A stretch of 64,000 bases of DNA from IMG/VR virus record IMGVR_UViG_3300047508_000265, positions 1 through 64,000 of that record. One strand, given 5' to 3'. Source of the DNA: a virus. Both the position numbers and the translations under genes were made by a program. The notes under the pieces are model-generated. The model was not told the origin of the DNA and did not search any database. It worked only from the letters and a program-made list of their open reading frames with translations. Of this stretch, positions 1,169 to 63,262 are shown one piece after another (positions within the stretch are counted from its first letter, which is position 1; every line of letters starts with the position of its first letter).

Positions 1169-1717
1169 TTAAAACCACTTAACTTTTCTGTGTCTAGCTC
1201 GATGGCAATTAGCACACAGTACTTTTACTATTGGAGGGAAATTTTGATTTATTAACCAGCGAAAAAATTGACCGCTTTTGCCTACTTTTTCCCTATTTTG
1301 TTTTCCATCGCCGTTGATATGATCAAGTTCAAGAACCTCAAAACAAGTAACTCCGCAGCCCCGAGCCGTGCAATGTGGATCACCTTTGCAATAATGAGAT
1401 ATGACTATACGTCGTAAACTACGACGATTAGTTCGATTTCTTACTAACGCACAATCAATACAAGAAGTATCATGCTCATAAAAATCTCGTTTAGATTTCT
1501 TTTTCTTGCATCTCCAACAACACATCATTGCTGGTTTATTTTTTCGCCAGCGTTTGTGAATTTCCTTTGAGCGTTCTTTATTGGAATGATACCATTTAAA
1601 GGCTCGGATTCTATCTTCACATTTCTTTTCTTCTGATTTAGGAGAAATAGTACGTTGCAACAGCCAATACATTCTATGAGCAATCACTTCTCTTTGTTTG
1701 TTAGTCATTTCCAACAC
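1169..1717 (-). CDS. HNH endonuclease (free-standing homing type)
   Basis: 182 aa, GTG start. A basic N-terminal half carries a CxxC pair (CWRC) and a second pair (CIDC). The HNH core LELDHINGDG at about residues 129-138 is followed by FFRWL and LCANCHRARH, the layout of zinc-stabilised phage HNH nucleases. These usually cut at or near their own insertion site and spread by homing. It belongs to the same subgroup as the genes at 30270, 45976 and 50100. Confidence 0.9.
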   Translation of the reverse strand: MLEMTNKQREVIAHRMYWLLQRTISPKSEEKKCEDRIRAFKWYHSNKERSKEIHKRWRKNKPAMMCCWRCKKKKSKRDFYEHDTSCIDCALVRNRTNRRSLRRIVISHYCKGDPHCTARGCGVTCFEVLELDHINGDGKQNREKVGKSGQFFRWLINQNFPPIVKVLCANCHRARHRKVKWF

Positions 1718-10915: not shown

Positions 10916-11623
10916 TTAGTGGAAGACCTTCTTAACCTTGTAAGTTAGACTATCGCTTTTGCAACCATTTTCGTAAGCAGAAATAATCTGCAAATTTTCA
11001 GGCGAATGGGCGCCTCCTTTTGCAAGCGGAATTATGTGATCAACTTGAACGTTAAATCCCTGTTGGCGTAGTTCAGAAGCACGAATATAAATTTTTGCGA
11101 TCTTAGTAAGATCGCCAATAGTAACCAATCTTTTTAGCGCTTCTCGCTTGGCATTCGTGGCGCTTTTCTTTCCTGGATTCTTTTTAGACCATAATCTTTT
11201 AGTTTTTCTTACTCTTTCGGGATATTGACGCCGGTATCTTCTCGAATTTTCACAATGTTTTTGTTTATTAATGGGCTGATTGCGCCATTTTCTAGCTTGC
11301 TTGGCTATTCTTTTTTGGTTAGCACGAGCATAATTCTTTCTCCATTCAGGATTGTTTCTATGCCAAATTCGGCATGCTTTTCTTCTTTCGTCTACATATT
11401 TTAATCTAGATTTGCGGCTGTTGCTTCTAATCTTATCTGGAAACGCAAGAAAATATAACGCTTTGTACATTCGAAATTGCGCCATACGTTCTTCATCTTG
11501 TCCACAAGCTAGGCAGCAGTTATTGCTTTTTCTTCTGCCGCACTTCCACGTATCGTGTCCATTTACACAATAACGTTTTCTGCTTTTGCGAACCTCTTGT
11601 TTACGTCGCTCTTTGGAAATCAC
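10916..11623 (-). CDS. HNH endonuclease, TIGDL family
   Basis: 235 aa. Long basic N-terminus with a four-Cys finger (CVNGHDTW..., CCLACG) followed by Arg/Lys-rich repeats. The C-terminal HNH core contains TIGDLTKIAKIYIRA, VDHIIPLAKGGAHSPENLQII and ends KVKKVFH. This C-terminal block is nearly shared with genes at 41206, 47903 and 58573, so they form one homing family within the genome. It overlaps the upstream 82-aa gene by four bases. Confidence 0.9.
   Translation of the reverse strand: MISKERRKQEVRKSRKRYCVNGHDTWKCGRRKSNNCCLACGQDEERMAQFRMYKALYFLAFPDKIRSNSRKSRLKYVDERRKACRIWHRNNPEWRKNYARANQKRIAKQARKWRNQPINKQKHCENSRRYRRQYPERVRKTKRLWSKKNPGKKSATNAKREALKRLVTIGDLTKIAKIYIRASELRQQGFNVQVDHIIPLAKGGAHSPENLQIISAYENGCKSDSLTYKVKKVFH

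Positions 11624-16915: not shown

Positions 16916-19761
<2,846 letters not shown>

Positions 19762-19765
<4 letters not shown>

Positions 19766-22792: not shown

Positions 22793-22793
<1 letters not shown>
22074..22793 (-). CDS. Glycine-rich tail tip protein, 239 aa
   Basis: An N-terminal beta domain (MAYVEEFTTTQSWTCPAG...) leads into glycine-rich blocks (GGGGAGGG, then GGAGGGA) and ends GYVRLLYGLG. This fits the glycine-rich tip domains of phage receptor-binding proteins, which pack as polyglycine II helices. It follows directly after the long collagen-like fibre gene, so it probably sits at a fibre tip. Confidence 0.75.
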
Positions 22794-25804
<3,011 letters not shown>

Positions 25805-25805
25805 G

Positions 25806-26198
25806 TCATCTACGTACGTGCATTTTGTTAGCAGCGCCAAAGTTCAAGGCGTTACGTGGAAGCACAATGCCACGAGTTCCAAAAGGCGTTACTGAATTAG
25901 TCAAGCCATTAACTCCCATTGCTCCCGGAGCCGCAGGATTGGGGTCCCCTTCGCTCTGCTCTGGTGACATAGACGGATCAATAGGCATGCCGTCAACTTG
26001 AACAATCTCCATCAAGCCCGCTTCATCAACACGAAAAGTTCCCACAGCATTGAATAAATCTCCTGCAGCAAGTCCATCAGGCAAAGGATAATTTTTAGGT
26101 AGTGGGAAAGTTACTCTCGGAGCTTCTGATATTGGCTCACCAGCAGGGTTAGTCTGCGGCTTCATCATCTGCGAAATTATATTACCGACATTGGCCAT
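25806..26198 (-). CDS. Conserved phage protein, 130 aa, paralog of the 108-aa protein
   Basis: Shares [14 protein letters not shown] and [11 protein letters not shown] with the protein at 21014. N-terminus [14 protein letters not shown] versus MPNKASDIIAQMKG also matches. The tail ends NKMHVRR. Its position just upstream of the long fibre suggests a tail-associated role. Confidence 0.6.
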
Positions 26199-28625: not shown

Positions 28626-29813
28626 TTAGGCACCAGTACAACCAGTGTCGCCAGGAATCACTGGACCACAGCGTAAGTGACGAATCACATAACCGAGGTC
28701 AGGACGCTCTTCTTTTATCCCATACGCAAATAGCGCACGGAAGAAGCCGATGTTGCCATCGATATTGCAGTCCCGGGACGGGATGTTGCGCCACACGAAC
28801 TCACCTGCCCACGAATACTGGGCGAGATAGGTCATGCCGCCAATGTTGCCCTGAGGCTTGGGAATCAGCACACGAAGAACTTCCTCGTGATAGATTACCG
28901 TATCCTCGTAGTCAGCATCTTTGTAGACGTCATTAACCAGCCATTTCTGACCGCGAGAAGCACTTGCAGCAGAATACGGATATCTCCGCGCATAGGCGCC
29001 GGTCACGATATCGTATCTAGGCGGAAACTGCACAGCTTGGAATTTAAAGCCATGGTAAACTTTTCCGCCAAGCCCAGGAGCACCAACCAATACATCAGGT
29101 TCGTTAAACGAGAAATACCGGTAGTCATTCCTGTTATTGGAACTCAGTTTCTTGAGGTTGTTGAACGTGTAATTCGAGCCAACCGCTGTGTAAACAGCAG
29201 TGCCATCATCAACACGCGCAGTAGGTTTCAAAGTTCCGCCATTATACCCAAGCTCTTGGTGAATTGTTTCAAGCAACTCAAAGCTCAAGGTTGATGTAGG
29301 CGGAACAGAAGCGTCAAAGGTTGTCTCAATCGTAGGCGAGGCGCCTATAGCTGAAACACAATTAGCTGAATGGGCGATTACTTCTGTTTGATAGGTCTGG
29401 GACCAAACCCACTTTGAATTCTCGGCGAGAACTCTAGTTACGTTTTTGATCTGGTCTAGCACCTGCCATTGGAACTTGAAATCATCCAAGCAGATATCTG
29501 GACTATTGACGGCAGCTTTCTTCAAAGCCACGGTCTTCACATCAACAGCGAAACTGTCAATGTTATAGCCAGTGATAGAACATGCGCCGGTACCGATCAG
29601 GTTATTACCTGTGGCACCAGTGGCGCTGAGAGTTGCAAACGACTGGAAGAAATCCGCATCCGTTACCGCTTTCGTGATTAACGATCGCTGATATATTGGG
29701 TACGAATATTGATAGCCTTGGCCGTCAAGCCAAGGTTCCTTCGGCAGTGTTTTAATGTAAAAATCTGAGTCTTGAATTTGGACTGCAACCAATATTGTTA
29801 CTACCTTTTCAGG
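28626..29813 (-). CDS. Major capsid protein, exon 2 (main part)
   Basis: The continuous open frame starts at TTG 29792, but coding continues upstream (PEKVVTILVAVQIQD) up to the intron. With exon 1 (29989-30069) the spliced product would have about 422 residues. It follows the scaffold-like gene and precedes tail genes, the usual capsid position, and has the expected mixed beta-rich composition for an HK97-type shell. No catalytic motif. Capsid role rests on position and size. Confidence 0.7.
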   Translation of the reverse strand, partial: PEKVVTILVAVQIQDSDFYIKTLPKEPWLDGQGYQYSYPIYQRSLITKAVTDADFFQSFATLSATGATGNNLIGTGACSITGYNIDSFAVDVKTVALKKAAVNSPDICLDDFKFQWQVLDQIKNVTRVLAENSKWVWSQTYQTEVIAHSANCVSAIGASPTIETTFDASVPPTSTLSFELLETIHQELGYNGGTLKPTARVDDGTAVYTAVGSNYTFNNLKKLSSNNRNDYRYFSFNEPDVLVGAPGLGGKVYHGFKFQAVQFPPRYDIVTGAYARRYPYSAASASRGQKWLVNDVYKDADYEDTVIYHEEVLRVLIPKPQGNIGGMTYLAQYSWAGEFVWRNIPSRDCNIDGNIGFFRALFAYGIKEERPDLGYVIRHLRCGPVIPGDTGCTGA

Positions 29814-29988: not shown

Positions 29989-30069
29989 ACTGAAACGCGA
30001 CGTTGGTCCATCGTTCCGAATTAGCATCGAATGATCAAGAAACAGATTTTCTAAAGCAGTACATGCCAT
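29989..30069 (-). CDS. Major capsid protein, exon 1 (27 codons)
   Basis: ATG at 30069 with AAGAAAG about 10 bases upstream. Encodes MACTALENLFLDHSMLIR and stays open to AGT at 29989, where the group I P1 helix places the splice site. Joining to CCTGAAAAG at 29813 keeps frame. Without splicing the frame stops within the intron. Confidence 0.75.
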
Positions 30070-30269: not shown

Positions 30270-30731
30270 TCAAGAAATTTCTTTATGAGGACAAACGCCA
30301 TAGTTAGATTTGGCGTTATTGCAATTGTGGCACAACACTTGAAAGCCTTTAGGAAATTTATTCTTTTTTAACCAACGATAAAAATCAGTTCCCGCTCTTC
30401 CATTAGTGTATTTACGTCTATGAGCATTGCCCCTTCCTTCTATATGATCAATTACTAAAAATTGAAAGATATCTTCACCACAACAAGCGCATTTAGATGG
30501 CGTACCGCCATAATGCTCCAAGCATTCTTTTCGAAGAGCTTGTTCCCGTTTCTTTTTCTTTGCGATAATCTCTACAGAATGATTACGATACCAGACTTTC
30601 CATCCCTTTCGTCTAGATCGTTTCCCTTTTTCGGACATGTAATATCGACGACTAGCTGCCTTCCCTTTGTCAGAATGGTTGTACCGGTATTCAGTAGCAA
30701 GTCGAGCTTCGCGCCGTTCATGAATATTCAC
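30270..30731 (-). CDS. HNH endonuclease upstream of the capsid gene
   Basis: 153 aa. Basic helical N-terminus, then a zinc knuckle (CACCGED), HNH core FLVIDHIEGRGNAHRRKY, FYRWLKKNKFPKGFQVLC and HNCNNAK. It belongs to the same subgroup as 1169, 45976 and 50100. Located directly between the scaffold gene and the intron-bearing capsid gene, it is a candidate mobility partner for that intron although it lies outside it. Confidence 0.9.
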   Translation of the reverse strand: MNIHERREARLATEYRYNHSDKGKAASRRYYMSEKGKRSRRKGWKVWYRNHSVEIIAKKKKREQALRKECLEHYGGTPSKCACCGEDIFQFLVIDHIEGRGNAHRRKYTNGRAGTDFYRWLKKNKFPKGFQVLCHNCNNAKSNYGVCPHKEIS

Positions 30732-30772: not shown

Positions 30773-32065
30773 TTATTGCGGTAAGATATTCGGTAGACTC
30801 TTCTTCAATACATCAATGAAGCTCGCACTCTCTGCGGGTTTCGCAGAAGCCGGTGCGGGAGCAGGAGGAGCGCCGCCGCCAGCAGGGGGTGTGCCACCAC
30901 GCAATTTGGTAACCTCTTCCTCTAAGTCTTGGTTACTTTTGACCAAGTCAGCAACAAGACCGAGAGTCATATCCAAAGCTTCCTTCTTATAAAGAGCCTC
31001 GGCGATAGCGCTATTAGGCATACGAGCAACGTCTACAGCTTGAACTCGTGCAATCGCCTGCTGCATATTTGTATCCCAAGCAGCATCCTTGGTAATGCCA
31101 AAGATAGGAATGTTCTGGGCGAGATTCTTTAGAGTATCCGTGAGTGCGCTCTTCCAATTCGCCTGATATTCCTGCACCGCTTGATCGTTGGCTTGTTTAG
31201 CAGTTCGCCTGTTCTCCTCAAGTTTCTGCATCGCAAACTCAAGAACCTGTTGCTTCTCTACATTCAATCGGTCGTAATCAAGCACAGATCGATCGAACCC
31301 AGTCATATCTAGGCGATTAAAGCCCGCGGATAATTCGGACAATTTATCGCTTCTTACAGTTTGATCGGGCTCCATCAACGCCGAACGCAATTCAGTAGGA
31401 TCGATCTTATATTTAGTAGAATACGCCTTGAAGCTGTTCTCGACAGTCTCAAGCGGCTTGGCGATCTTGTTCTGGAACTCTTCAGTATTCTGATAATCTA
31501 CAATCGACAAGCGTTTCTCATAATCATTTACTTTGTCTTGGAGTAGTTTGACCTCGGCTTCATTTACCGGCGGAGCTTGTGACGCCGAAGAAAGCTTCTG
31601 TTCCGCCTCGGCAAGTTTCGCCTCTGAATCTTTCAGATTTCTTCGAAGAATCTTAAACGCCGTTCCCGCAGCGACCGTCATCTTGCTCTGGGCAGCATCT
31701 AACTGTGCTTCTGTGGGAGCCGCCGCTGTCGCACCGGTGGCGCCAGTTTCAGCCGTAGGACCGGTAGCGCCCGTATCAGCCGCTGCTGTCGCACCGGTAG
31801 CAGCCGTATCACCTGTCGCACCAGTCTCTGCAGTAGCTCCTGTGGCCGCGGTATCGCCTGTAGCGCCGGTCGGAGCCGGTTCTGCAGCCGCTGTAGCGCC
31901 GGTAGCACCAGTGTCAGCAGCCGCTGTAGCGCCGGTTGGAGCCGGTTCGTTTTCTAAATTTCCTTTTGCTGGCAGGGCTTCTGGCGGAATAACGCCTCCT
32001 GGGTAAGCTGCTGCTAAAGCGGCTTCGAATGATGTAACGGCGGTATTTGTGACGGGTTCGGGCAT
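30773..32065 (-). CDS. Scaffold-like protein with TGATAA-type repeats, 430 aa
   Basis: N-terminal 115 residues contain degenerate TGATA/TGAT repeats resembling the collagen tracts but alanine-rich. From about 130 a charged coiled coil follows (LRRNLKDSEAKLAEAEQ, VKLLQDKVNDYEKRL), the usual architecture of capsid assembly scaffolds. Pro/Ala-rich linker near 390 and a C-terminal helix (FIDVLKKSLPN). Position between portal-side genes and capsid supports the call. Confidence 0.7.
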   Translation of the reverse strand: MPEPVTNTAVTSFEAALAAAYPGGVIPPEALPAKGNLENEPAPTGATAAADTGATGATAAAEPAPTGATGDTAATGATAETGATGDTAATGATAAADTGATGPTAETGATGATAAAPTEAQLDAAQSKMTVAAGTAFKILRRNLKDSEAKLAEAEQKLSSASQAPPVNEAEVKLLQDKVNDYEKRLSIVDYQNTEEFQNKIAKPLETVENSFKAYSTKYKIDPTELRSALMEPDQTVRSDKLSELSAGFNRLDMTGFDRSVLDYDRLNVEKQQVLEFAMQKLEENRRTAKQANDQAVQEYQANWKSALTDTLKNLAQNIPIFGITKDAAWDTNMQQAIARVQAVDVARMPNSAIAEALYKKEALDMTLGLVADLVKSNQDLEEEVTKLRGGTPPAGGGAPPAPAPASAKPAESASFIDVLKKSLPNILPQ

Positions 32066-32066
32066 A

Positions 32067-32396
32067 TTAAACGACTACCTTTCCTTCTAGGATTTCTTGT
32101 GCTCTTTCTTCGACATTGCCTGAATCCCATGGTTTTCGGTCAGGCATGCGATGAACATTTAGTTCAGCAAGTTTAAGTAAATTTTGAAGCGCAGCCTCGT
32201 ATCCAGCTTTCTTAGCGCCGTATACTGCGTAGACTTCCATTAAATTAGGAGCGCTTAAAGGAGGAGAACCAGAAGCTTCGTAAAGTTGTTCTTTAACGAT
32301 TGCCAATGCATCGACAAATGCAGGCTGTTGCATTAACTCGGCGAGTTCTCTACGTCTTGTTGGAGATTCTTTCCACTGATCTAATAATGAGGGCAT
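32067..32396 (-). CDS. Head-region protein, 109 aa
   Basis: Helical protein (TRRRELAELMQQPAFVDALA, then EAALQNLLKLAELN) next to the scaffold gene and upstream of the portal. Possibly a head-completion or assembly factor; no family recognised. Confidence 0.6.
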   Translation of the reverse strand: MPSLLDQWKESPTRRRELAELMQQPAFVDALAIVKEQLYEASGSPPLSAPNLMEVYAVYGAKKAGYEAALQNLLKLAELNVHRMPDRKPWDSGNVEERAQEILEGKVVV

Positions 32397-32455
32397 ACGA
32401 TTATCTGAATTTACAGGCCCAATCTAGGGCGATGATTACTTATCTCACACGGAAT

Positions 32456-32590
32456 TTACTTGTCAACCAAAATCAGGATGCCCGCGAGAACGGCCACAAT
32501 TCCAACAATTACAGCAGGAATTGGAAGACCGAACGAGACAAGCCCGAATAGGATCAAGAAAATTGCGAGAGCTATAGTTCCGAGTTTCAT
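32456..32590 (-). CDS. Two-span membrane peptide, 44 aa
   Basis: ATG at 32590, stop TAA at 32456. Almost entirely hydrophobic (TIALAIFLILFGLVS, AVIVGIVAVLAGILIL). It fills the gap between the portal and the 109-aa gene and is too short for a 60-residue cutoff. Function unknown. Confidence 0.6.
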   Translation of the reverse strand: MKLGTIALAIFLILFGLVSFGLPIPAVIVGIVAVLAGILILVDK

Positions 32591-32601
32591 AAGCACCAAC
32601 A

Positions 32602-34845
32602 CTACGCAGTTTGTTTAGCTTGTCCACTAACTTTTTGAGCCGCGGCGGCGTCCGCTAACGCTCGCGCCTGCGCTGCCGTAGCCGCCTTCTCTTTCATAGT
32701 TGATTGATGAAGTTCTTCTCGATGCCGTATCTTCTGACTGTGCTCCTCTTGGGATTGACGGAGATTCTGAGCATGCTCATTCTCAGCCGCTTGAGAAGCA
32801 GGATCGGGCGGAGGAGGTTGAGTCGCAGCTTTAATCTGATCTTTCATCGCCTGCCGCTTGGCCCTATCGTCCGCTGCAGAAGTGCGCTCGGCTAAATTAT
32901 TAAATTTCCTAGTCAACTCAGCAACTAACTTCTCCTGCAATTTATCCGGTTTCAAAAGCTGCATATGCTGCGCGGAATGTTTCGTCTTCAATATCGCCAC
33001 CTGCAAAAGTTGCGGGGTGGCCTGACCCTGTTCAAGTTGAACTAAGTCGTTCTCCAAACTGGGTAAATGCGCCTGTAGATGAAGAATATGATGATCGTTG
33101 GGCATGACCGACATAGGAACACCATTACTCATTGCGACATTTTGGAGTTCGGCAATCTCGGCATCAAGCGGAGTCCGGCCATTCATTTGAATTGAAGGAA
33201 CAAATTCGTCTACTTGTGCGTATCCTACCTTTTGAGCAAACTTAGCACGAAGCAAATTATTCTGGCCCACTGGATCAAGGGAACCCCAATAATCCATAAA
33301 GTCATCGAACGCAGCCTCTCTCGCTGCGGGCGAACCATACCCAACTGCACGATAAGGTTCCACCCAAGAAGTGAGATCCATTAGCATGACTTCAGGAACG
33401 CCTCGCCTCATACATCTTTCTCTATAGGCGAAAACTTGTATGCCTCCAGGATCGTTTTGCTTTAGCTTTGGATTTTTAACTCGCCGCCATACCTCGTTCA
33501 GGTGGCGCTTCCATGGCTGATAGAAAAGATTCAAGGACGCTGTTGGAAGAACTGACTCCTCGGCGATATCCGCTCGCTTCTCGAATTTGGTTTTTCTCTG
33601 ATCGCCACTTTGCTTCTGATTTACATTAGGCTGCTGATCCTGCAGCAACATAGACATGTCCTGAATAATTGGAAGCATGCTATCAGATGGATTCTGAAGT
33701 TTTGTCTGAACCACATTAACCTCAGGTGGGATATAGACCACACCACCGTACCAAATCAAAGCCATATCCTCCGCCTCAGTAGCTGACTTAGGCTGAATAA
33801 TCATGCTACCCGCCAATCGAGCGTTATCTACCGATTGATTACGAACTGTGTTAAGAACCTGTGCTTCGGGATACCTTTCATGAGCTAGGCCCCTGACGGA
33901 ATGCAACTGACCGTTGGTCCCAACCTCGTAAGGAAAAAAGTTGAAACATTGATTAACGTTCTCGAACCGATTTTCGTACTTGAATAAGTAGTCTTCATTA
34001 TCGCCAAGGCGCAAAGTTAAGTAATAGGAAACTTTCCCGGAATATTCTTTCACCCAGCAGTGAGCTAACTTCACATACTCATTCGCCTTTGTAGCTGCAA
34101 AAATGTCGTTATTTTTAAGAATCGTTTCCCACTTTTCCCATTCTCCCTGCGACCAAACTGCCTGCTGATTGTACGCCTTTAATATCGCCTTATAAACTTC
34201 CGGCCTGTTCCAACGCTTATCTCCGGGATCGCTTTGCATACACCATTGATAAAGAGTAGATACTGTAACCTCTCGAAATGCTACAGCGATATCTACTTCC
34301 TCTTCAGCAAGTGTAGTTCCGCGAGCCATCTTAAAGTCCTCCATACCCGCAACTCGCCACTGCCAATTCAAGTCGTCCTGAAAATACAGAAATCCCATAC
34401 CATGAGTAACAAATTTCTGAACAAGCAATTGATGGTACGTTTCAAAAGACGACCAATCCTTTAACATCTTATGAAATTCTTCCGACATGACGGAACACCA
34501 CTCTGATCGCTTAGTGGGATCAACGTCCATGTTAGAATTCACACGAGCCAATACTGGAACTGATTCAGTTAGATCATAATAAGATACACACTCTCGTTTT
34601 ACTCTACGCTTAAGATCAAGGAAGTTTAAGTTAGCACGACCTTCTTGTCCCGAATCTCGCATATACTGTTCATCATATGGCGCCTTGCCATCAACTGCAG
34701 CCTGTATGTCCTGTCGCTGCAAGGCAGAAATTAAATCCAACTCAACAATCTTCTTGACAATATTGTTAAGAGACCCAACATCGGCGATACGCGTTTTAGG
34801 GGCTTTGCCGGTTTCTGTTATTTGAGCGAAGTTAAAATCTGCGAT
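32602..34845 (-). CDS. Portal protein, about 747 aa, non-AUG start
   Basis: Large protein between the terminase and scaffold genes, with DGKAPYDEQYMRDSGQEG, VPVLARVNSNM and a helical Gln/Glu/Ala-rich C-terminus typical of portals. The frame stays open upstream of the first TTG (34740) through ADFNFAQITETGKAP and KTRIADVGSLNNIV, to an ATC at 34845 preceded by AAGGAAGG at the right distance. This extended part looks coded, so I take an AUC (or AUU) start; TTG at 34740 is the conventional alternative. Confidence 0.75.
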   Translation of the reverse strand: MADFNFAQITETGKAPKTRIADVGSLNNIVKKIVELDLISALQRQDIQAAVDGKAPYDEQYMRDSGQEGRANLNFLDLKRRVKRECVSYYDLTESVPVLARVNSNMDVDPTKRSEWCSVMSEEFHKMLKDWSSFETYHQLLVQKFVTHGMGFLYFQDDLNWQWRVAGMEDFKMARGTTLAEEEVDIAVAFREVTVSTLYQWCMQSDPGDKRWNRPEVYKAILKAYNQQAVWSQGEWEKWETILKNNDIFAATKANEYVKLAHCWVKEYSGKVSYYLTLRLGDNEDYLFKYENRFENVNQCFNFFPYEVGTNGQLHSVRGLAHERYPEAQVLNTVRNQSVDNARLAGSMIIQPKSATEAEDMALIWYGGVVYIPPEVNVVQTKLQNPSDSMLPIIQDMSMLLQDQQPNVNQKQSGDQRKTKFEKRADIAEESVLPTASLNLFYQPWKRHLNEVWRRVKNPKLKQNDPGGIQVFAYRERCMRRGVPEVMLMDLTSWVEPYRAVGYGSPAAREAAFDDFMDYWGSLDPVGQNNLLRAKFAQKVGYAQVDEFVPSIQMNGRTPLDAEIAELQNVAMSNGVPMSVMPNDHHILHLQAHLPSLENDLVQLEQGQATPQLLQVAILKTKHSAQHMQLLKPDKLQEKLVAELTRKFNNLAERTSAADDRAKRQAMKDQIKAATQPPPPDPASQAAENEHAQNLRQSQEEHSQKIRHREELHQSTMKEKAATAAQARALADAAAAQKVSGQAKQTA

Positions 34846-35293
34846 AAAAATCCCTTCCTTTAATTAGATTATCTCGGGCCCAAAGCGGCTGGGTATTGGT
34901 ATAATGAAAGGCAGCTTTCTGACCAGCTAATGTAGTAAGGTCAAATTTACAAATTGGGATTTTGTGGTCAATGTGCCATTCACCATAATTTGTCCAAGAC
35001 ATCCCAGGAACAAACTGTCGCTCAAGAAAAGTTTTGTAAAAGTGATAAGAACAGCCCAACAACTCCTTAGTATGCCCCATTTTCAGTAATCCAGATACCG
35101 CTCTTCGCACACGTTCACGACAACTATGTCGTAACTTAACTAAAGGTTTTTGTTTATATTTTCGACAAGCCGCTTTATGCTTTTCTGGATTAGCTAACTG
35201 CCAGCATTTACGGTATCCTTTAAATTCTTCAGGATGTCCTAATGCCCATAAATACTTGTACATTCTTCTTTCCAAATCAGTTAACTTGGCCAT
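34832..35293 (-). CDS. HNH endonuclease between terminase and portal
   Basis: 153 aa, ATG at 35293. Core WHIDHKIPICKFDLTT and the downstream helix QPLWARDNLIKGRDF fit the HNH type that binds DNA without the CxxC knuckles of the other subgroups, so it is a third lineage. Its last codons overlap the portal start region by 14 bases. Confidence 0.85.
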   Translation of the reverse strand: MAKLTDLERRMYKYLWALGHPEEFKGYRKCWQLANPEKHKAACRKYKQKPLVKLRHSCRERVRRAVSGLLKMGHTKELLGCSYHFYKTFLERQFVPGMSWTNYGEWHIDHKIPICKFDLTTLAGQKAAFHYTNTQPLWARDNLIKGRDFYRRF

Positions 35294-35330
35294 GATCAAT
35301 TAATCTTAGGCGATGCCCCGATAAAGTCAA

Positions 35331-37145
35331 TTAGACTTCTGGATGGGCCCCCACTCGGATACGAGATAAGGCGGAAGGCCGAGCAAGTTTGGGATTACGC
35401 AATCTGCACAGCTCTCTCCAACTTCGCACAACTTTTTTTAAATTACTGTCGGGGGCAATCTTCATCGTAAATCCAAAACGTTCCCGTGCCAATGTGACAA
35501 GAATAAAACCCGCATCCGCAATATCGGGACTTCGATGGGTTCTAAATTTCATATCTGTTTTGCTCTCAGCGAAAATTCTTTTCTTAGCGCCAGTGGTTCC
35601 ATACATTCGTATCACCATCTCTTGCGCCATCGCGGGGCATATGCCTTTAAGTTGTGACTGACGAAGTAATTCACGCCCGCTATACCAAATTTCCGAAACT
35701 CTATCATGATATTTTTCTTTGGCTGGAGTTGAATCAGTAAGGCTGACTGGAAACTCGCTAGCACTACCACCAAAGTTTACGCGAAGTATCAGAGGAGACC
35801 ATACAGTAGCTACCACATCACAAAATGGATTACCCGCCCCCGTATTATCTACTCCGCAATTATAAGGCGGAATATCTCGTTTCTCGCACTGTTCTTTTAA
35901 CTGTCTGGCAATTTGAAAAGATCGTTCTTCTTTTGTGTTAGTGACATCTTCGGTTAACTCAAGGTATTCATCAAACTGTAATACTTTCTTTCCTTCTTTA
36001 TCCTGACCCAAGGTTCCAAAATATAAAATTGATCGATCGCCGCCATTCGTAAATCCGGGATCCAAGGCTGCTATACGAATAAGCGGAGAATCCCCCCAAA
36101 CAGCGGGCTCGTCACCCTTAAACTTCACAATATCAACTTGTGAATAAATCAAATCGGCTTGACCCATAGGCGAAGGGAAACCGCGAATCATACGCCAGAA
36201 ACGCAGGGAATTTGCACCACCCTCAGACGCTAGCGCCGCATCAATCTTCTCTTGGGTTGGAAGAAACGACAGTCCCGTATTTGGCGCCTTATAAATTACC
36301 TCAGGAATGTTAGGCGATTTCATTCCATCTAAATGCAAGGCGATACCGTATTCAGTTTCCCAGCGAGTATCCTCTACAGTGATAGAAGTCCAACCAGCTT
36401 TCGGTTTCCAGATTCGAGCAAAGCTATCATAATAAGAGGCTGGATTCGCCAACCCAATCACTTGATACTTGGGATTTGAAGAAAGATTTCCACCGGGAAG
36501 CGCATACTCTATAATTGACTCAGGCAATTCTGTAAGCTCATCCGCCACTACAATCACCTCATCTTGGTGTTTTCCAATCAACTTTCCAATCGCCTCTTTT
36601 TCCTGTTTTCGTTCACCAGCGATTAAGCATAGACAAGCCCGCTCTCCCGCCTTAAACGTAGGTGAATTGTAACGAATTATGCCGGTTGCCATAGCTTCCA
36701 ACGGCAAAACCCCCTTTGGAATTGCATGAACGAAGTCTACGGCAGAACCCCAAATACGTTGTTTCGCCTCCTTTAGGGAAGTGGATATGGCAAAACCAAG
36801 AGTACGGCGAGCATTAGATAAATACTTTACAAGCAACCACAAAGCCGCGGTTTCTGATTTTGTCGAACCACTGGCGCCGCCAACAGCAACATATTTGTAG
36901 GAGCACAATTCATCCACAATATCCTCGGACCAAGGATTTTTGATGAAGTATTTGGAGGTATTGTGAACTGGATTATTAACGCCCCAGAGATAAGCCACAA
37001 TCTCCCAAAAATGTCCCGCCTGCCCAAGACCACCCTGTTCTTTAGTTCGACCTATTTTGAAGCAATGCAAGGCTATGTCGAGATTTGTCCACTTCTGGGG
37101 AAACATCAATCCATATTTTTGTCTGCGCTGCATTCCCTGTATCAT
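35331..37145 (-). CDS. terL: Terminase large subunit, 604 aa
   Basis: ATPase motifs: Walker A-like GGASGSTKS (89-97), Walker B VIVVADE (197-203). Nuclease motifs: ALDPGFTNGGD near residue 370, VDNTGAG and the Asp-rich HRSPDIADAGF. It packages DNA into the procapsid with the portal. The frame is open upstream of the ATG but has no better start. Walker A lacks the usual Gly before Lys (TKS), a known kind of variation in terminases. Confidence 0.9.
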   Translation of the reverse strand: MIQGMQRRQKYGLMFPQKWTNLDIALHCFKIGRTKEQGGLGQAGHFWEIVAYLWGVNNPVHNTSKYFIKNPWSEDIVDELCSYKYVAVGGASGSTKSETAALWLLVKYLSNARRTLGFAISTSLKEAKQRIWGSAVDFVHAIPKGVLPLEAMATGIIRYNSPTFKAGERACLCLIAGERKQEKEAIGKLIGKHQDEVIVVADELTELPESIIEYALPGGNLSSNPKYQVIGLANPASYYDSFARIWKPKAGWTSITVEDTRWETEYGIALHLDGMKSPNIPEVIYKAPNTGLSFLPTQEKIDAALASEGGANSLRFWRMIRGFPSPMGQADLIYSQVDIVKFKGDEPAVWGDSPLIRIAALDPGFTNGGDRSILYFGTLGQDKEGKKVLQFDEYLELTEDVTNTKEERSFQIARQLKEQCEKRDIPPYNCGVDNTGAGNPFCDVVATVWSPLILRVNFGGSASEFPVSLTDSTPAKEKYHDRVSEIWYSGRELLRQSQLKGICPAMAQEMVIRMYGTTGAKKRIFAESKTDMKFRTHRSPDIADAGFILVTLARERFGFTMKIAPDSNLKKVVRSWRELCRLRNPKLARPSALSRIRVGAHPEV

Positions 37146-37157
37146 ATCACGAAAGGC

Positions 37158-37193
37158 TTGACTTTCATCCCAAAATTTGAGATAATAGAAGAC
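37158..37193 (+). promoter_or_regulatory. Phage promoter P1, plus strand
   Basis: TTGACT (37158-37163), 17-base spacer, GATAAT (37181-37186), with AAATTTGA before the -10. The predicted start is about 37193 and the first ATG is at 37202, so the leader is only about 9 bases. It shares spacer and -10 with P2 and P3. Confidence 0.75.
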
Positions 37194-37201
37194 ACTTAGA
37201 A

Positions 37202-37282
37202 ATGAACTATTTTATCGCAGGATTTCTCGTTGGTGGTTTTTTCGTATTATTTTTCTGGATAATTAGCGATTTACGAAAATGA
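37202..37282 (+). CDS. Membrane peptide, 26 aa
   Basis: ATG directly after promoter P1, stop overlapping the next ATG. Product (MNYFIAGFLVGGFFVLFFWI) is one hydrophobic span. Very short but consistent with the overlapping series. Function unknown. Confidence 0.5.
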   Translation: MNYFIAGFLVGGFFVLFFWIISDLRK

Positions 37283-37398
37283 TTAAATGTTTCTTTCATA
37301 TACACAAATGGAGCTATTTTGTCGATGGCAGCGTAAGACAATGTAGACGATGTGGTAAGTGGCAATATCAAATTTTTACACGATTACGTTGGGTATGA
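37279..37398 (+). CDS. Small zinc-binding protein, 39 aa
   Basis: Contains CFFHIHKW and CRRCGKWQ, giving a Cys/His arrangement able to hold zinc (KC..H..H plus CxxC). It resembles the short phage DUF1660-type pattern with RQCRRCGK. Overlaps both neighbours by four bases. Confidence 0.6.
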   Translation: MIKCFFHIHKWSYFVDGSVRQCRRCGKWQYQIFTRLRWV

Positions 37399-37835
37399 TA
37401 GCAATTGATCCAGGACAGTCCGGCGGGATAGCCTCAAATGAAGAGCCCGGCGATATCGTCGCGTGGGCAATGCCAAAAACCGATAGAGAAATAGCAGATC
37501 GTTTGAGCCCCGGGGCAAATCCAATAGCTTATCTTGAAGACCTTGTAAAATTTACAGGTAGAAATATGCCCTCCTCAGCTATGGCGGTTTACGCTTCTAA
37601 CTGGGGGTTTATCAAAGGAGTGCTAACGGCAAGAGGTTTTCGTATAGTAATTATACATCCCAAAACATGGCAGAAAGCTCTCGGCCTTGGGACTACAAAA
37701 AGCCTCTCTCGAACAGAATGGAAAAATAAATTGAAACAAAAAGCAGAACAACTCTATCCAAAAATCAAAGTGACTTTGGCAACGGCAGACGCTTTACTAA
37801 TTCTTGAAGCCGCCCGAAGAGGTGCCCTAGGATGA
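37395..37835 (+). CDS. RuvC-like Holliday junction resolvase/nuclease, 146 aa
   Basis: ATG at 37395 chosen because it gives MIAIDPGQSGGIA, an RNase H-fold beta-1 with the first catalytic Asp (D5), and overlaps the previous stop. An Asp near 132 (ATADALLILEAAR) fits the last catalytic acid. Phages use such enzymes to resolve branched DNA before packaging. Exact specificity is not visible. Confidence 0.8.
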   Translation: MIAIDPGQSGGIASNEEPGDIVAWAMPKTDREIADRLSPGANPIAYLEDLVKFTGRNMPSSAMAVYASNWGFIKGVLTARGFRIVIIHPKTWQKALGLGTTKSLSRTEWKNKLKQKAEQLYPKIKVTLATADALLILEAARRGALG

Positions 37836-38125
37836 AAGTCTTATTTATTGGGGGACAAATGGATGGGTATCGTCGAGATTGGCCCGCTTCCCGAGACCAA
37901 ATAGCGAATTTCGCCATTCGTTGTCCGGGTCCATTTAATGCAGCTTTTGCAACAGCGCACTGTGATCAAGCAGTTAGTTTTAAAACTGATACATATACTC
38001 TTCGACAATTCGCAGAAGGCGACAACAGGTATTTCGTTGCAGCGCATCCAAGCGTCAAGAATACAATGGAGAAGTTAATCAAGGGCTACCACGGTCACCG
38101 ACATGGACGATCAAGGCGAGTATAG
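37832..38125 (+). CDS. Conserved small phage protein, 97 aa
   Basis: Starts MKVLFIGGQMDGYRRDWP, a pattern common at the start of short phage proteins of unknown function. Rest: polar, with YTLRQFAEGDNRYFVA and a basic His-rich tail. Overlaps neighbours. Confidence 0.65.
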   Translation: MKVLFIGGQMDGYRRDWPASRDQIANFAIRCPGPFNAAFATAHCDQAVSFKTDTYTLRQFAEGDNRYFVAAHPSVKNTMEKLIKGYHGHRHGRSRRV

Positions 38126-40556: not shown

Positions 40557-41209
40557 AAGCTGTTACTTATTTTAACGAAGTGGAAAGTTTACACGATCCT
40601 GCCCTGCTTGAATTATGGAAAGCTTCATGGGCAAAGTTTGGATGGGAGCCCGTGGTGCTTACTATCAAAGATGCCTTGGAAACTGACCCCGATATGGTGG
40701 AACGTTTTCAGAAATCTCCTCTACTAAAATCCCATCCCGGAAATCCATCCGGTTATGTTTGGGCTTGCTTAGTACGCTGGGTAGCGCAACTTAAAATAAA
40801 AGAGCCAAGCCTGCTGCTGGATTGGGATGTTATATGTAACGGATACAAACCAGAAGACGCACCGAAAGAAACTAACGATTTTAGACCCGTATTTCTAGCT
40901 GGTGGTTTATGTCCATGCGCAGTTGCAGGAAGACATATGACTTGGCAAATGATTTGTGCTTGGCTAGAATTCGCACCCTTTGCCCCAAACTTTAGCACAG
41001 AAGCTTTGGCGAAAGACAACGCAGACCAATATGCTATTGCTTACGTAATGCCTAAAGAATGGGCGATCGTCGATCCAAAATCTCCTTGTATAGCATATCA
41101 GAACGAAGGCTGGAAAACAGCGCCAATGATTCATTTCCCAAATCAAGTAACAAGCTATCCGAGAAGTGAAGTAATTAAACATGAATTAGGGATATTAGGG
41201 AACAGTTGA
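40553..41209 (+). CDS. Glycosyltransferase-like protein with DxD, 218 aa
   Basis: LLLDWDVI at about 87-94 gives a D90xD92 pair suited to metal-nucleotide sugar binding (GT-A). N-terminus MKAVTYFNEVESLH, later PCAVAGRHMTW and IHFPNQV. The family is not recognised with certainty. It ends on an overlap with an HNH gene. Confidence 0.6.
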   Translation: MKAVTYFNEVESLHDPALLELWKASWAKFGWEPVVLTIKDALETDPDMVERFQKSPLLKSHPGNPSGYVWACLVRWVAQLKIKEPSLLLDWDVICNGYKPEDAPKETNDFRPVFLAGGLCPCAVAGRHMTWQMICAWLEFAPFAPNFSTEALAKDNADQYAIAYVMPKEWAIVDPKSPCIAYQNEGWKTAPMIHFPNQVTSYPRSEVIKHELGILGNS

Positions 41210-41697
41210 AAACTCCTTTAAAAATTCTAGAAAAGAATAAACGCTGGCGACTGCGGCATCCGGTTCAAGTAAAAGCAATAAACCAAAGCTATTATTCAAA
41301 AAATTCTAGAAAAATAAAAGCCAAGGTTCGTAGATACAAAAAACAAAACAAAAAGAAAGTAAACGCATCCAACAAAAAATGGCGAGCAAAGAACAAAACA
41401 AAAGTAAAAGAAATAGGCCGAAAATACTACTTAAAACACCCCGATAAGGCAAGAACAAATTGCGTTAAAAGACGAGCCTTAAAACGAAAAGCTACAATTG
41501 GTGATTTAACAGAAATCGCCAAAATTTACGCCCGCGCCAGAGAGCTTAGACAATGGTTTAATGTCGTAGTTGATCATAAAATTCCTCTTTCAAAAGGCGG
41601 GGCGCATTCACCCGAAAATTTACAAATTATTTACGCTTACGAAAACGCTCAAAAACACAACAGTTTAACTTATAAACCTAAAATAATTTTCAAATGA
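41206..41697 (+). CDS. HNH endonuclease, TIGDL family
   Basis: 163 aa, TTG start overlapping the glycosyltransferase stop. A very basic N-terminal half is followed by TIGDLTEIAKIYARA, VVDHKIPLSKGGAHSPENLQII and ends PKIIFK with an ATGA overlap to the next gene. Almost the same C-terminal block as genes at 10916, 47903 and 58573. Confidence 0.9.
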   Translation: MKTPLKILEKNKRWRLRHPVQVKAINQSYYSKNSRKIKAKVRRYKKQNKKKVNASNKKWRAKNKTKVKEIGRKYYLKHPDKARTNCVKRRALKRKATIGDLTEIAKIYARARELRQWFNVVVDHKIPLSKGGAHSPENLQIIYAYENAQKHNSLTYKPKIIFK

Positions 41698-45929: not shown

Positions 45930-45941
45930 CCAAACAACATT

Positions 45942-45971
45942 GGACACGCGGGTCCAACCCCCGCACTGTCC
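45942..45971 (+). other. Hairpin resembling a tRNA/tmRNA 3' end
   Basis: GGACA-C-GCGGG-TCCAACC-CCCGC-AC-TGTCC. The GCGGG(7 nt)CCCGC arm plus a five-base closing stem mimics a T-arm stacked on an acceptor and resembles the 3' end of tmRNA (GGAC, GCGGG, CAA, CCCGC). No CCA follows. Could be an attachment-site remnant, a processing signal, or a hairpin ending the preceding gene. Confidence 0.5.
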
Positions 45972-45975
45972 ATTT

Positions 45976-46320
45976 ATGTATTACAAAAGTAAAAAATTTT
46001 ACAAGACACGGAAACGTTATGCTAAAACGCATCGAGTCGAGCTACGAATTAAGCAACGTCAATATAATAGAAAACTAAAAGAAGATATATTTAATCATTA
46101 TGGAATCGAATGCGCTCACTGTAAATTTTCTGATTTACGAGCTTTATCTATCGATCATATTAACGGGGGCGGCACTCAACATAGAAAAAAGTTTAAAAGT
46201 CCCTACTCTTTTTACATATGGTTGCGACAAAATAAATTTCCAAAAGGGTTTCAAACTCTTTGTATGAATTGCCAATTTATCAAACGACATACAAACAACG
46301 AAAGTACCCGAATAAAATGA
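45976..46320 (+). CDS. HNH endonuclease
   Basis: 114 aa from ATG 45976 (MYYKSKKF); a TTG at 45940 would lie inside the hairpin. Core CAHCKFSDL, LSIDHINGGGTQHRKKF, FPKGFQTLCMNC. Stop codon overlaps the ATG of the dNMP kinase. Same subgroup as 1169, 30270 and 50100. Confidence 0.85.
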   Translation: MYYKSKKFYKTRKRYAKTHRVELRIKQRQYNRKLKEDIFNHYGIECAHCKFSDLRALSIDHINGGGTQHRKKFKSPYSFYIWLRQNKFPKGFQTLCMNCQFIKRHTNNESTRIK

Positions 46321-47754: not shown

Positions 47755-47919
47755 ATGAAAGCATGGACCTGCACAACTGGCTGGTGCTTTGGCGAAACGC
47801 CTAGACGGGTAGCGGGAACGGATTCTGTCCCGTTCAACCGCATCTCTCCCATCGCAAGATGGCGCCTTGTGAATTGCCTTAGGTGTGCGGGTCCTTTAAT
47901 TTATGGGTTCCTCAATTAA
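47755..47919 (+). CDS. Small Cys-rich protein, 54 aa
   Basis: ATG at 47755, stop at 47919, overlapping the HNH start by 17 bases. Two Cys pairs (CTTGWC and CLRC) around a basic centre suggest a zinc knuckle. Unknown. Confidence 0.5.
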   Translation: MKAWTCTTGWCFGETPRRVAGTDSVPFNRISPIARWRLVNCLRCAGPLIYGFLN

Positions 47920-48343
47920 ATACTACAAAGAGCATCCAGAAAAACGTCGTGAACATATGCGACAATGGAGAGCTAACCGTCCGGGCTATAAATCTGCAGA
48001 AGGAAAATTATATCGTAAACGGTACCCTGAAAAAGCTAGATTATCTTGTCGAAAAAATTATCAAAAGCACAAACAAGAGAGAATTCAAAAAGGCGCCATT
48101 CATGCCAGAACTTATAGAGCCAGAAAACATGGCGCAACTATAGGAAACGCAAAAGACATCCTAAAAATTTATAACCGAGCGAAAGAACTGCGGCAATCTG
48201 GGTTTGATGTAGCCGTTGATCACATTTTCCCGCTTTCAAAGGGAGGAGCGCATTCTGTGGAAAATCTTCAAATAATTTACTCTTTTGAAAACTCTCAAAA
48301 AGGCGATCGGCTTAATTACATACCTTCTATTATTTTCAAATGA
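47903..48343 (+). CDS. HNH endonuclease before DNA polymerase
   Basis: 146 aa with repeated basic segments, GATIGNAKDILKIYNRA, VDHIFPLSKGGAHSVENLQII and C-terminus IPSIIFK. Its stop codon overlaps the polymerase ATG (ATGA). TIGDL family with 10916, 41206 and 58573. Confidence 0.9.
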   Translation: MGSSIKYYKEHPEKRREHMRQWRANRPGYKSAEGKLYRKRYPEKARLSCRKNYQKHKQERIQKGAIHARTYRARKHGATIGNAKDILKIYNRAKELRQSGFDVAVDHIFPLSKGGAHSVENLQIIYSFENSQKGDRLNYIPSIIFK

Positions 48344-58278: not shown

Positions 58279-58592
58279 TACTTGATGAATACCAAGAGCG
58301 AGCTTATGACTTGGCGCTTCCTACGACCAAAAATATAACTTACATGTTGCTTGGAGTAACTAATGAATCTGGGGAGGCCGCTGGGAAATTGAAGAAAGCG
58401 CTTCGAGGCGATAAGAAACTAGCCGCGATAACTGAAGATATCGCACAGGAATTGGGTGATGTGCTTTGGTATGTATCCGGAGCCGCTAGAGTTCTAGGGT
58501 ATTCTTTGGATGAAATCGCCTGTATGAATTTGAAAAAATTGGAAGATAGACAATTGAGAGGTAAACTGCAAGGTGACGGAGACGAACGCTAA
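58275..58592 (+). CDS. MazG-like nucleotide pyrophosphohydrolase, 105 aa
   Basis: Metal-binding acids in ESGEAAGKLKK (E31, E34) and ELGDVLWYV (E59, D62) match the MazG fold. These hydrolyse dNTPs or (p)ppGpp-like nucleotides. It sits with ribonucleotide reductase, consistent with nucleotide-pool control. Confidence 0.8.
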   Translation: MILDEYQERAYDLALPTTKNITYMLLGVTNESGEAAGKLKKALRGDKKLAAITEDIAQELGDVLWYVSGAARVLGYSLDEIACMNLKKLEDRQLRGKLQGDGDER

Positions 58593-59064
58593 AATTATTT
58601 ATTCGCTTTTATGGGGTTTAGTTTTTCCTGAAAAAAGGAAAGTGATTCTTCATAAGTATAATATTTCGGATAAAAGAAAAGCGGTAACGAGACGATATGC
58701 ACAATCTGAGCGCGGAAAACAAACTATTACAGCTTATAACAATTCATCTCAAGGTAAGAACAATAGACGGCGAGCCAAACGAAAATACAAACGGTCTGAA
58801 AAGGGCCGACTAAAGAATTGTGTTCATGCTGCAAAACGTAATGCTCTGAAGAGGTGTCGTACGGTTGGTGATCTTTTTGCTATAGAAAAGGTTTACGCTC
58901 GTGCGCAAGAGCTTCGACAATGGTTTGATGTTGTAGTTGATCATATTGTTCCTCTTGCTAAAGGCGGCGCCCATTCTCCAGAAAATTTGCAGATTATTTA
59001 TGCTTTTGAAAATGAACGCAAGGGAGCCCGCTTAGATTATAAGCCACGAGTTATTTTCAAATGA
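58573..59064 (+). CDS. HNH endonuclease before ribonucleotide reductase
   Basis: 163 aa, GTG start. Basic N-terminus, RTVGDLFAIEKVYARA, VDHIVPLAKGGAHSPENLQII and ends PRVIFK. Its stop overlaps the reductase ATG (ATGA). TIGDL family with 10916, 41206 and 47903. Confidence 0.9.
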   Translation: MTETNAKIIYSLLWGLVFPEKRKVILHKYNISDKRKAVTRRYAQSERGKQTITAYNNSSQGKNNRRRAKRKYKRSEKGRLKNCVHAAKRNALKRCRTVGDLFAIEKVYARAQELRQWFDVVVDHIVPLAKGGAHSPENLQIIYAFENERKGARLDYKPRVIFK

Positions 59065-63037: not shown

Positions 63038-63262
63038 TCATGTGTTTACTTTCTCGGGTTGGCAAGATTCGAACTTGCGATCTGATGCTCCCAAGGCATC
63101 CGCGCTGGCCGCTACGCTACAACCCGAGGAAGGAAACCCTCGGTTGCATCCGGGCGGCAATGGTTGTGTCTTGAGTTCGCGCATAAGATTAGGATCGGGT
63201 TCTGAGCCCATTTGTCTAGACATTTCTTTTAGGAATAAATTTTCGAATGTTTCTCGGTTCAC
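63038..63262 (-). CDS. Small protein whose 3' part overlaps a tRNA, 74 aa
   Basis: GTG at 63262 overlaps the upstream stop (GTGA). N-terminus NRETFENLFLKEMSRQMG and DPNLMRELKTQPLPPGC look coded. From about residue 46 the frame reads straight through the tRNA-Pro gene on the same strand and stops beyond it. Either the gene was truncated by the tRNA or translation stops there by tRNA processing. Confidence 0.45.
   Translation of the reverse strand: MNRETFENLFLKEMSRQMGSEPDPNLMRELKTQPLPPGCNRGFPSSGCSVAASADALGASDRKFESCQPEKVNT
63054..63126 (-). tRNA. tRNA-Pro (anticodon UGG)
   Basis: 73 nt on the minus strand. Acceptor CGGGTTG/CAACCCG, D-stem GCGT/GCGC (10-25 to 12-23 Watson-Crick, 13-22 wobble), anticodon stem GATGC/GCATC, loop CTTGGGA with anticodon TGG and G37, T-arm GCAAG-TTCGAAT-CTTGC, discriminator A. 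CCA is not encoded. All arms pair, so functional. It lies inside the ORF at 63038-63262. Confidence 0.93.

Follow-up and report, generated by a model that had tools for sequence, protein, structure and literature searches.

A viral portal gene with a possible AUC start codon at the end of an overlapping HNH endonuclease gene

Natural AUU start codons occur in the infC and pcnB genes of Enterobacteria. The T4-like phages have free-standing homing endonuclease genes (seg, mob). In T4, promoters of downstream genes are located inside endonuclease genes, and endonuclease genes overlap the gene upstream of them by 11-24 bp; overlaps of such a size have been discussed as translationally coupled (PMC2988022). 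Pairs of zinc ligands (CX2-4C and CX2C) flanking the catalytic motif mark the F-CphI/endonuclease-VII-motif family (PMC6083498). In a Neisseria PAAR gene, insertion of a CREE repeat changed the start codon from ATG to ATC, and the authors of that study were unsure whether the gene works (PMC10210955). E. coli reporter data, as cited in PMC12350097, place AUC among the seven strongest start codons.

The window that we analyzed is a 64,000-nt part (positions 1-64,000) of an 83,126-bp IMG/VR virus record. On its minus strand, a terminase-like gene, an HNH endonuclease gene and a putative portal gene follow each other (Table 1). No portal family was matched when the portal protein was compared with Pfam, PHROG, and NCBIfam. 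Its AlphaFold2 model is of modest to low confidence (pLDDT 62.9) and the Foldseek TM-scores are low; portals were nevertheless the top matches in both structure libraries, with the portals of Pan3 (E 1.4e-5), Carin1 (5e-4), and T7 (1e-3) found in the PDB and portal/connector entries found in BFVD. By its predicted fold and its position after the terminase-like gene, and not by sequence family, the gene is likely to encode the portal. The terminase-like gene, for which no profile matched as terminase, is 66, 66, and 58% identical to the genes upstream of the portal in the loci L001, L047, and L132, respectively. Proteins with long collagen-like GATGPTG repeats are encoded elsewhere in the window (17964-19765, 22793-25840, and 30773-32065), one of them downstream of the portal gene, and a single tRNA-Pro (TGG) gene is present at 63053-63127 on the minus strand.

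Table 1. Features at the junction of the HNH and portal genes (positions in the window).
Feature	Position	Strand	Remarks
Terminase-like gene, 5' of the HNH gene	35331..37145	-	name rests on position and a GASGSTKS P-loop-like motif
HNH endonuclease gene, intact	34832..35299	-	probable ATG 35293; 14-nt overlap with the ATC-started portal gene
Shine-Dalgarno sequence AAGGAAGGG	34852..34860	-	encoded by HNH codons Lys-Gly-Arg; 6 nt before ATC
ATT, less likely candidate start	34849..34851	-	directly abuts AAGGAAGGG; adds two residues that homologues lack
ATC, proposed portal start (AUC)	34843..34845	-	in register with the homologues' ATG; no in-frame NTG before 34740
TTG, first conventional portal start codon	34738..34740	-	rejected as main start
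Portal (head-to-tail connector) gene, 747 codons	32602..34845	-	Foldseek of AlphaFold2 model; no family match

Upstream, the open portal frame is bounded by a TAA at about 34865; its stop-to-stop segment begins L-K-E-G-I-F-I-A-D-F-N-F-A-Q-I-T-E-T-G-K-A-P. From the upstream stop to 34740 it contains no in-frame NTG codon; the first ATG, GTG, or TTG is the TTG at 34740, where the frame reads LKEGIFIADFNFAQITETGKAPKTRIADVGSLNNIVKKIVELDL and which lies 35 codons past ATC 34845-34843 (codon 36 counted from ATC). The original prediction had proposed that translation starts upstream of this TTG at a non-AUG codon, either ATC 34845 or an ATT, and these two triplets (the ATT at 34851-34849) are indeed the only AUG-like codons in frame. 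Among the 58 genes that we scanned, no other has so many open codons (41) ahead of its first ATG, GTG, or TTG; the next has 27, and the chance of such a run is about 1% per gene. Taken alone, the open frame is mildly unusual and constitutes weak evidence.

Comparison with homologous portals was more telling. In the closest relatives, L046/L001 (69% identical) and L047 (67%), which have no HNH gene, an ATG is located exactly at the window's ATC. L046 and L047 start with ATG GCC GAY AAT CTN GAC TTT, and the window reads ATC GCA GAT TTT AAC TTC, in register with the relatives' ATG GCC GAY apart from a one-codon gap. The portals of G001 (54% identical) and of L135 and L136 (about 50%) start with ATG GAC GC. 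At the 81 homologous loci the start codon is ATG in 72 cases and GTG in 9; at four of these nine our script had chosen an internal TTG, which is preceded by GTG (or by a V codon at the aligned VTNNPP/VTQNPP). The N-terminal segment is missing at none of the 81 loci, HNH-free ones included, and it is because of this conservation that we take the extra N-terminus, as originally predicted, to be genuine. A further suggestion, that AUC is used deliberately in order to limit portal synthesis, found no support, since no relative conserves a non-NTG start. No related portal was found in the INPHARED phage records, and neither hosts nor prophages were found in genome_contigs.

A shortened portal that starts at TTG 34740 (or at a later ATG), with the 35 upstream codons as a relic, would make use of the first conventional in-frame start codon, but the same comparison renders it improbable. 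Besides being present in all homologues, the segment upstream of TTG contains two residues (P16 and R19) that are invariant in 24 diverse homologues, and T12, G13, A15, P16, R19, I20, S25, L26, N27, V30, and K32 are invariant in the closest four portals. Over codons 2-36, the gene differs from L046 at 10/5/15 and from L047 at 10/5/19 sites (codon positions 1/2/3); the changes thus fall mostly at third positions, a pattern indicating that this stretch is under codon constraint. A helix predicted at residues 23-51 in the AlphaFold2 model would be cut by a start at TTG, and the Shine-Dalgarno sequence at TTG is weak. Because the invariant residues, the codon constraint, and the predicted helix lie upstream of TTG, we judge from alignment and model that this codon is not the real start and that the portal gene begins at or beside 34845.

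The position of the proposed start is backed by a strong ribosome-binding site. The duplex of AAGGAAGGG with ACCUCCUUA is predicted at -8.0 kcal/mol at a distance of 6 nt from ATC, while that at TTG 34740 reaches only -1.6; the former ranks with the strongest scores in our gene scan. AAGGAAGGG is unpaired in the minimum-free-energy fold, and the predicted RNA fold around it is no stronger than that of shuffled sequence. It is spelled by the codons AAA GGA AGG (AAAGGAAGG, Lys-Gly-Arg) of the HNH gene. Since Lys-Gly codons always spell AARGG, the D-N-L-x-K-G motif of the HNH protein would by itself carry part of a Shine-Dalgarno sequence. Initiation at ATT 34851 instead of ATC 34845, by which the residues IF would be added, is very improbable: the ATT is in frame, has an AAAGG about 5 nt upstream and corresponds to a known natural start codon (AUU, as in infC), but it directly abuts the main Shine-Dalgarno sequence and is out of alignment with the relatives' ATG. 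From ATC, the portal would begin with (M)ADFNFAQITETGK.

At the start base the junction reads GGAAGGGATTTTTAT, then C, then GCAGATTTTAAC, and G in place of C gives ATG. The real codon at 34845 may be ATG (or another NTG), with the C representing an error of sequencing or assembly or a minority or defective variant taken as consensus, and with a normal start behind an overlapping HNH gene; we regard this explanation, which the original prediction had not raised, as the main rival to a real AUC start and as less likely than it. With G as the true base, no feature of the locus would look different. ATC is one base away from ATG, and both the strong Shine-Dalgarno sequence and the exact register with the relatives' ATG are expected of a normal start. 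The HNH codon affected (CGC to GGC) is located in a non-conserved tail, faulty-looking sequence does occur in the same collection (of 81 portal loci, about 180 kb, one has an internal stop), and the ATC is known from a single record, a search of viral_contigs, in which near-identical records may be missing, for a second copy of the HNH-portal junction by exact pattern having yielded none. Conversely, a consensus error at any given base is rare and would have to hit the start codon beside an insertion boundary; apart from this base, the three reading frames concerned (portal, terminase-like, HNH) are intact. Against a real AUC start also speaks the consideration that one ATC-to-ATG change restores a strong start and should be favored by selection. 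Weighing these arguments, we see a real AUC start for the portal as evenly poised between true and false.

As had been predicted, the HNH gene ends inside this region: its stop codon lies within the portal frame, and its 3' end reads TTT TAT CGC AGA TTT TAA. The gene matches PHROG 1035 'endonuclease VII' (E 1.8e-12) and has 41 relatives in viral contigs. W-H-I-D-H (invariant W-H-x-D-H), N133, N142, and K145, which are conserved across 14 aligned relatives, are all present; as no invariant catalytic-motif residue has been lost, the gene does not look decayed. Conservation in the protein extends as far as D-N-L-x-K-G; the remaining tail, R-D-F-Y-R-R-F, varies among family members, which would be expected of a tail encoded by local sequence. 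The HNH gene has its own stop codon and a frame different from that of the portal, so that it is not contained in an intron or intein. L001, L047, and L135 lack it in front of their portal genes. With its sporadic occurrence between conserved genes and its intact catalytic residues, it would fit a free-standing HNH homing endonuclease. G001 (IMGVR_UViG_3300019888_000001) has an HNH gene of a different kind (VDHIIPLAKGGAHSAENLQII type) in front of the portal (locus L127), which ends about 30 nt before the portal's ATG, and HNH genes seem to insert repeatedly at the portal start. A further HNH homologue of G001 (L131; G001:25429-25878) is interrupted by a TAA and is possibly a decayed copy.

Two further ideas about the origin of this arrangement were not borne out. 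Reuse of the portal's ATG as the start of the HNH gene (ATGGCC at 35293) found no support. In L001, L047, and G001 the portal is preceded by a glycosyltransferase-like gene for which the window offers no convincing match, but L135 and L136 have neither gene, so that its replacement by the HNH gene does not follow.

A separate start would not be needed if a self-splicing intron, or a +1 frameshift out of the HNH gene, connected the portal N-terminus with sequence upstream of it. This is the least probable of the alternatives. Another gene of the phage does contain a group I intron, and the TTT TAA C at the HNH stop permits +1 re-pairing in principle; yet cmscan found no Rfam intron at E<=1 in 32000-38000 and nothing plausible at E<=10 in 34600-35500, the HNH reading frame fills nearly the whole gap, the relatives start at an ordinary ATG, and fusion of an endonuclease to the portal's N-terminus is unlikely. 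The HNH-portal frameshift fusion, for which a possible site but no comparative support was found, was dropped. The intron elsewhere, which the same cmscan search did detect, is a group I core (RF00028, 29846-30043, minus strand, E 2.2e-8, below the gathering score) located upstream of a gene (28626-29792) whose first conventional start is TTG; the probable first exon of this gene begins ATGGCATGTACTGC near 30069.

Eight HNH genes are present in the 64-kb window (1169-1717, 10916-11623, 30270-30731, 34832-35299, 41206-41697, 45940-46320, 47903-48343, and 58573-59064). Most of them sit directly against the next start, and in four of the eight the stop codon overlaps the following ATG as ATGA. 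HNH genes tucked against the next start are therefore usual in this window, while loss of the ATG is not. Some 25 other genes adjacent to HNH genes keep ATG or GTG, and for this reason start loss is not the usual result of an HNH insertion; general start-codon erosion by such insertions was rejected, as none of these genes was without ATG or GTG, bar L012. In L012, near 3465, the gene that follows the HNH gene appears to shift frame in a poly-A run immediately behind its ATG, through sequence error or slippage. The proposal that the HNH insertion replaced the portal's original ATG consequently stands as plausible and unproven: the ATG of the HNH-free homologues speaks for it, and the starts retained by the other HNH-adjacent genes speak against it.

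Our best explanation for this locus, to which we give an even chance, is that insertion of an HNH element at the start of the portal gene left this gene with an AUC start codon, which is served by the endonuclease's ribosome-binding site and probably by coupled translation. An endonuclease-VII-like HNH gene would have entered at the upstream edge of the portal gene, between the terminase-like and portal genes, so that its 3' end came to run 14 nt into the portal frame, and this event would have caused the loss of the ATG. The Shine-Dalgarno sequence that the endonuclease gene's last conserved codons provide would position the ribosomes, and portal synthesis would be initiated at AUC with the initiator Met-tRNA. 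Coupling is probable, given that ribosomes translating the endonuclease would finish at a stop a few codons downstream of AUC. A weak AUC might be tolerated, as the virion needs few portal subunits. A bolder version, in which AUC is the stable natural start of an essential virion gene whose ATG was destroyed by the endonuclease that now supplies ribosome site and coupling, so that the phage cannot lose the endonuclease without losing the portal, strikes us as rather doubtful.

If the C is real, an essential structural gene runs on a very weak start codon by means of a ribosome-binding site lent by a selfish endonuclease gene. This would be one way in which selfish endonuclease genes could become hard to delete, with the embedded promoters of T4 as a parallel. 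In that case, too, a gene finder restricted to ATG, GTG, and TTG would cut 35 residues off the portal. Should the C be wrong, what remains is an ordinary case of an HNH gene overlapping the portal start.

How does this locus compare with the described systems? Like the AUU starts of infC and pcnB, the proposed start is an AUN codon backed by a strong ribosome-binding site; those starts are conserved, however, whereas the window's ATC is found in one genome only. With the T4 seg and mob genes the HNH gene shares its location between phage genes, the overlap with a neighbor, and the possession of signals that the neighbor needs; in the window, the overlap is with the start of the downstream gene, and the signal would be a ribosome-binding site. 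The 'endonuclease VII' PHROG match and a His-x-Asp-His motif near the C-terminus are shared with F-CphI, but the CX2-4C and CX2C zinc pairs characteristic of its DHHRN homing endonuclease family are absent from the HNH protein. Common to the Neisseria PAAR gene and the putative portal gene are mobile DNA at the gene start, an apparent change from ATG to ATC, and a start that was missed by automatic annotation; the mobile DNA in Neisseria is a repeat element in a bacterium, whereas in the window a virion gene with a strong Shine-Dalgarno sequence is concerned.
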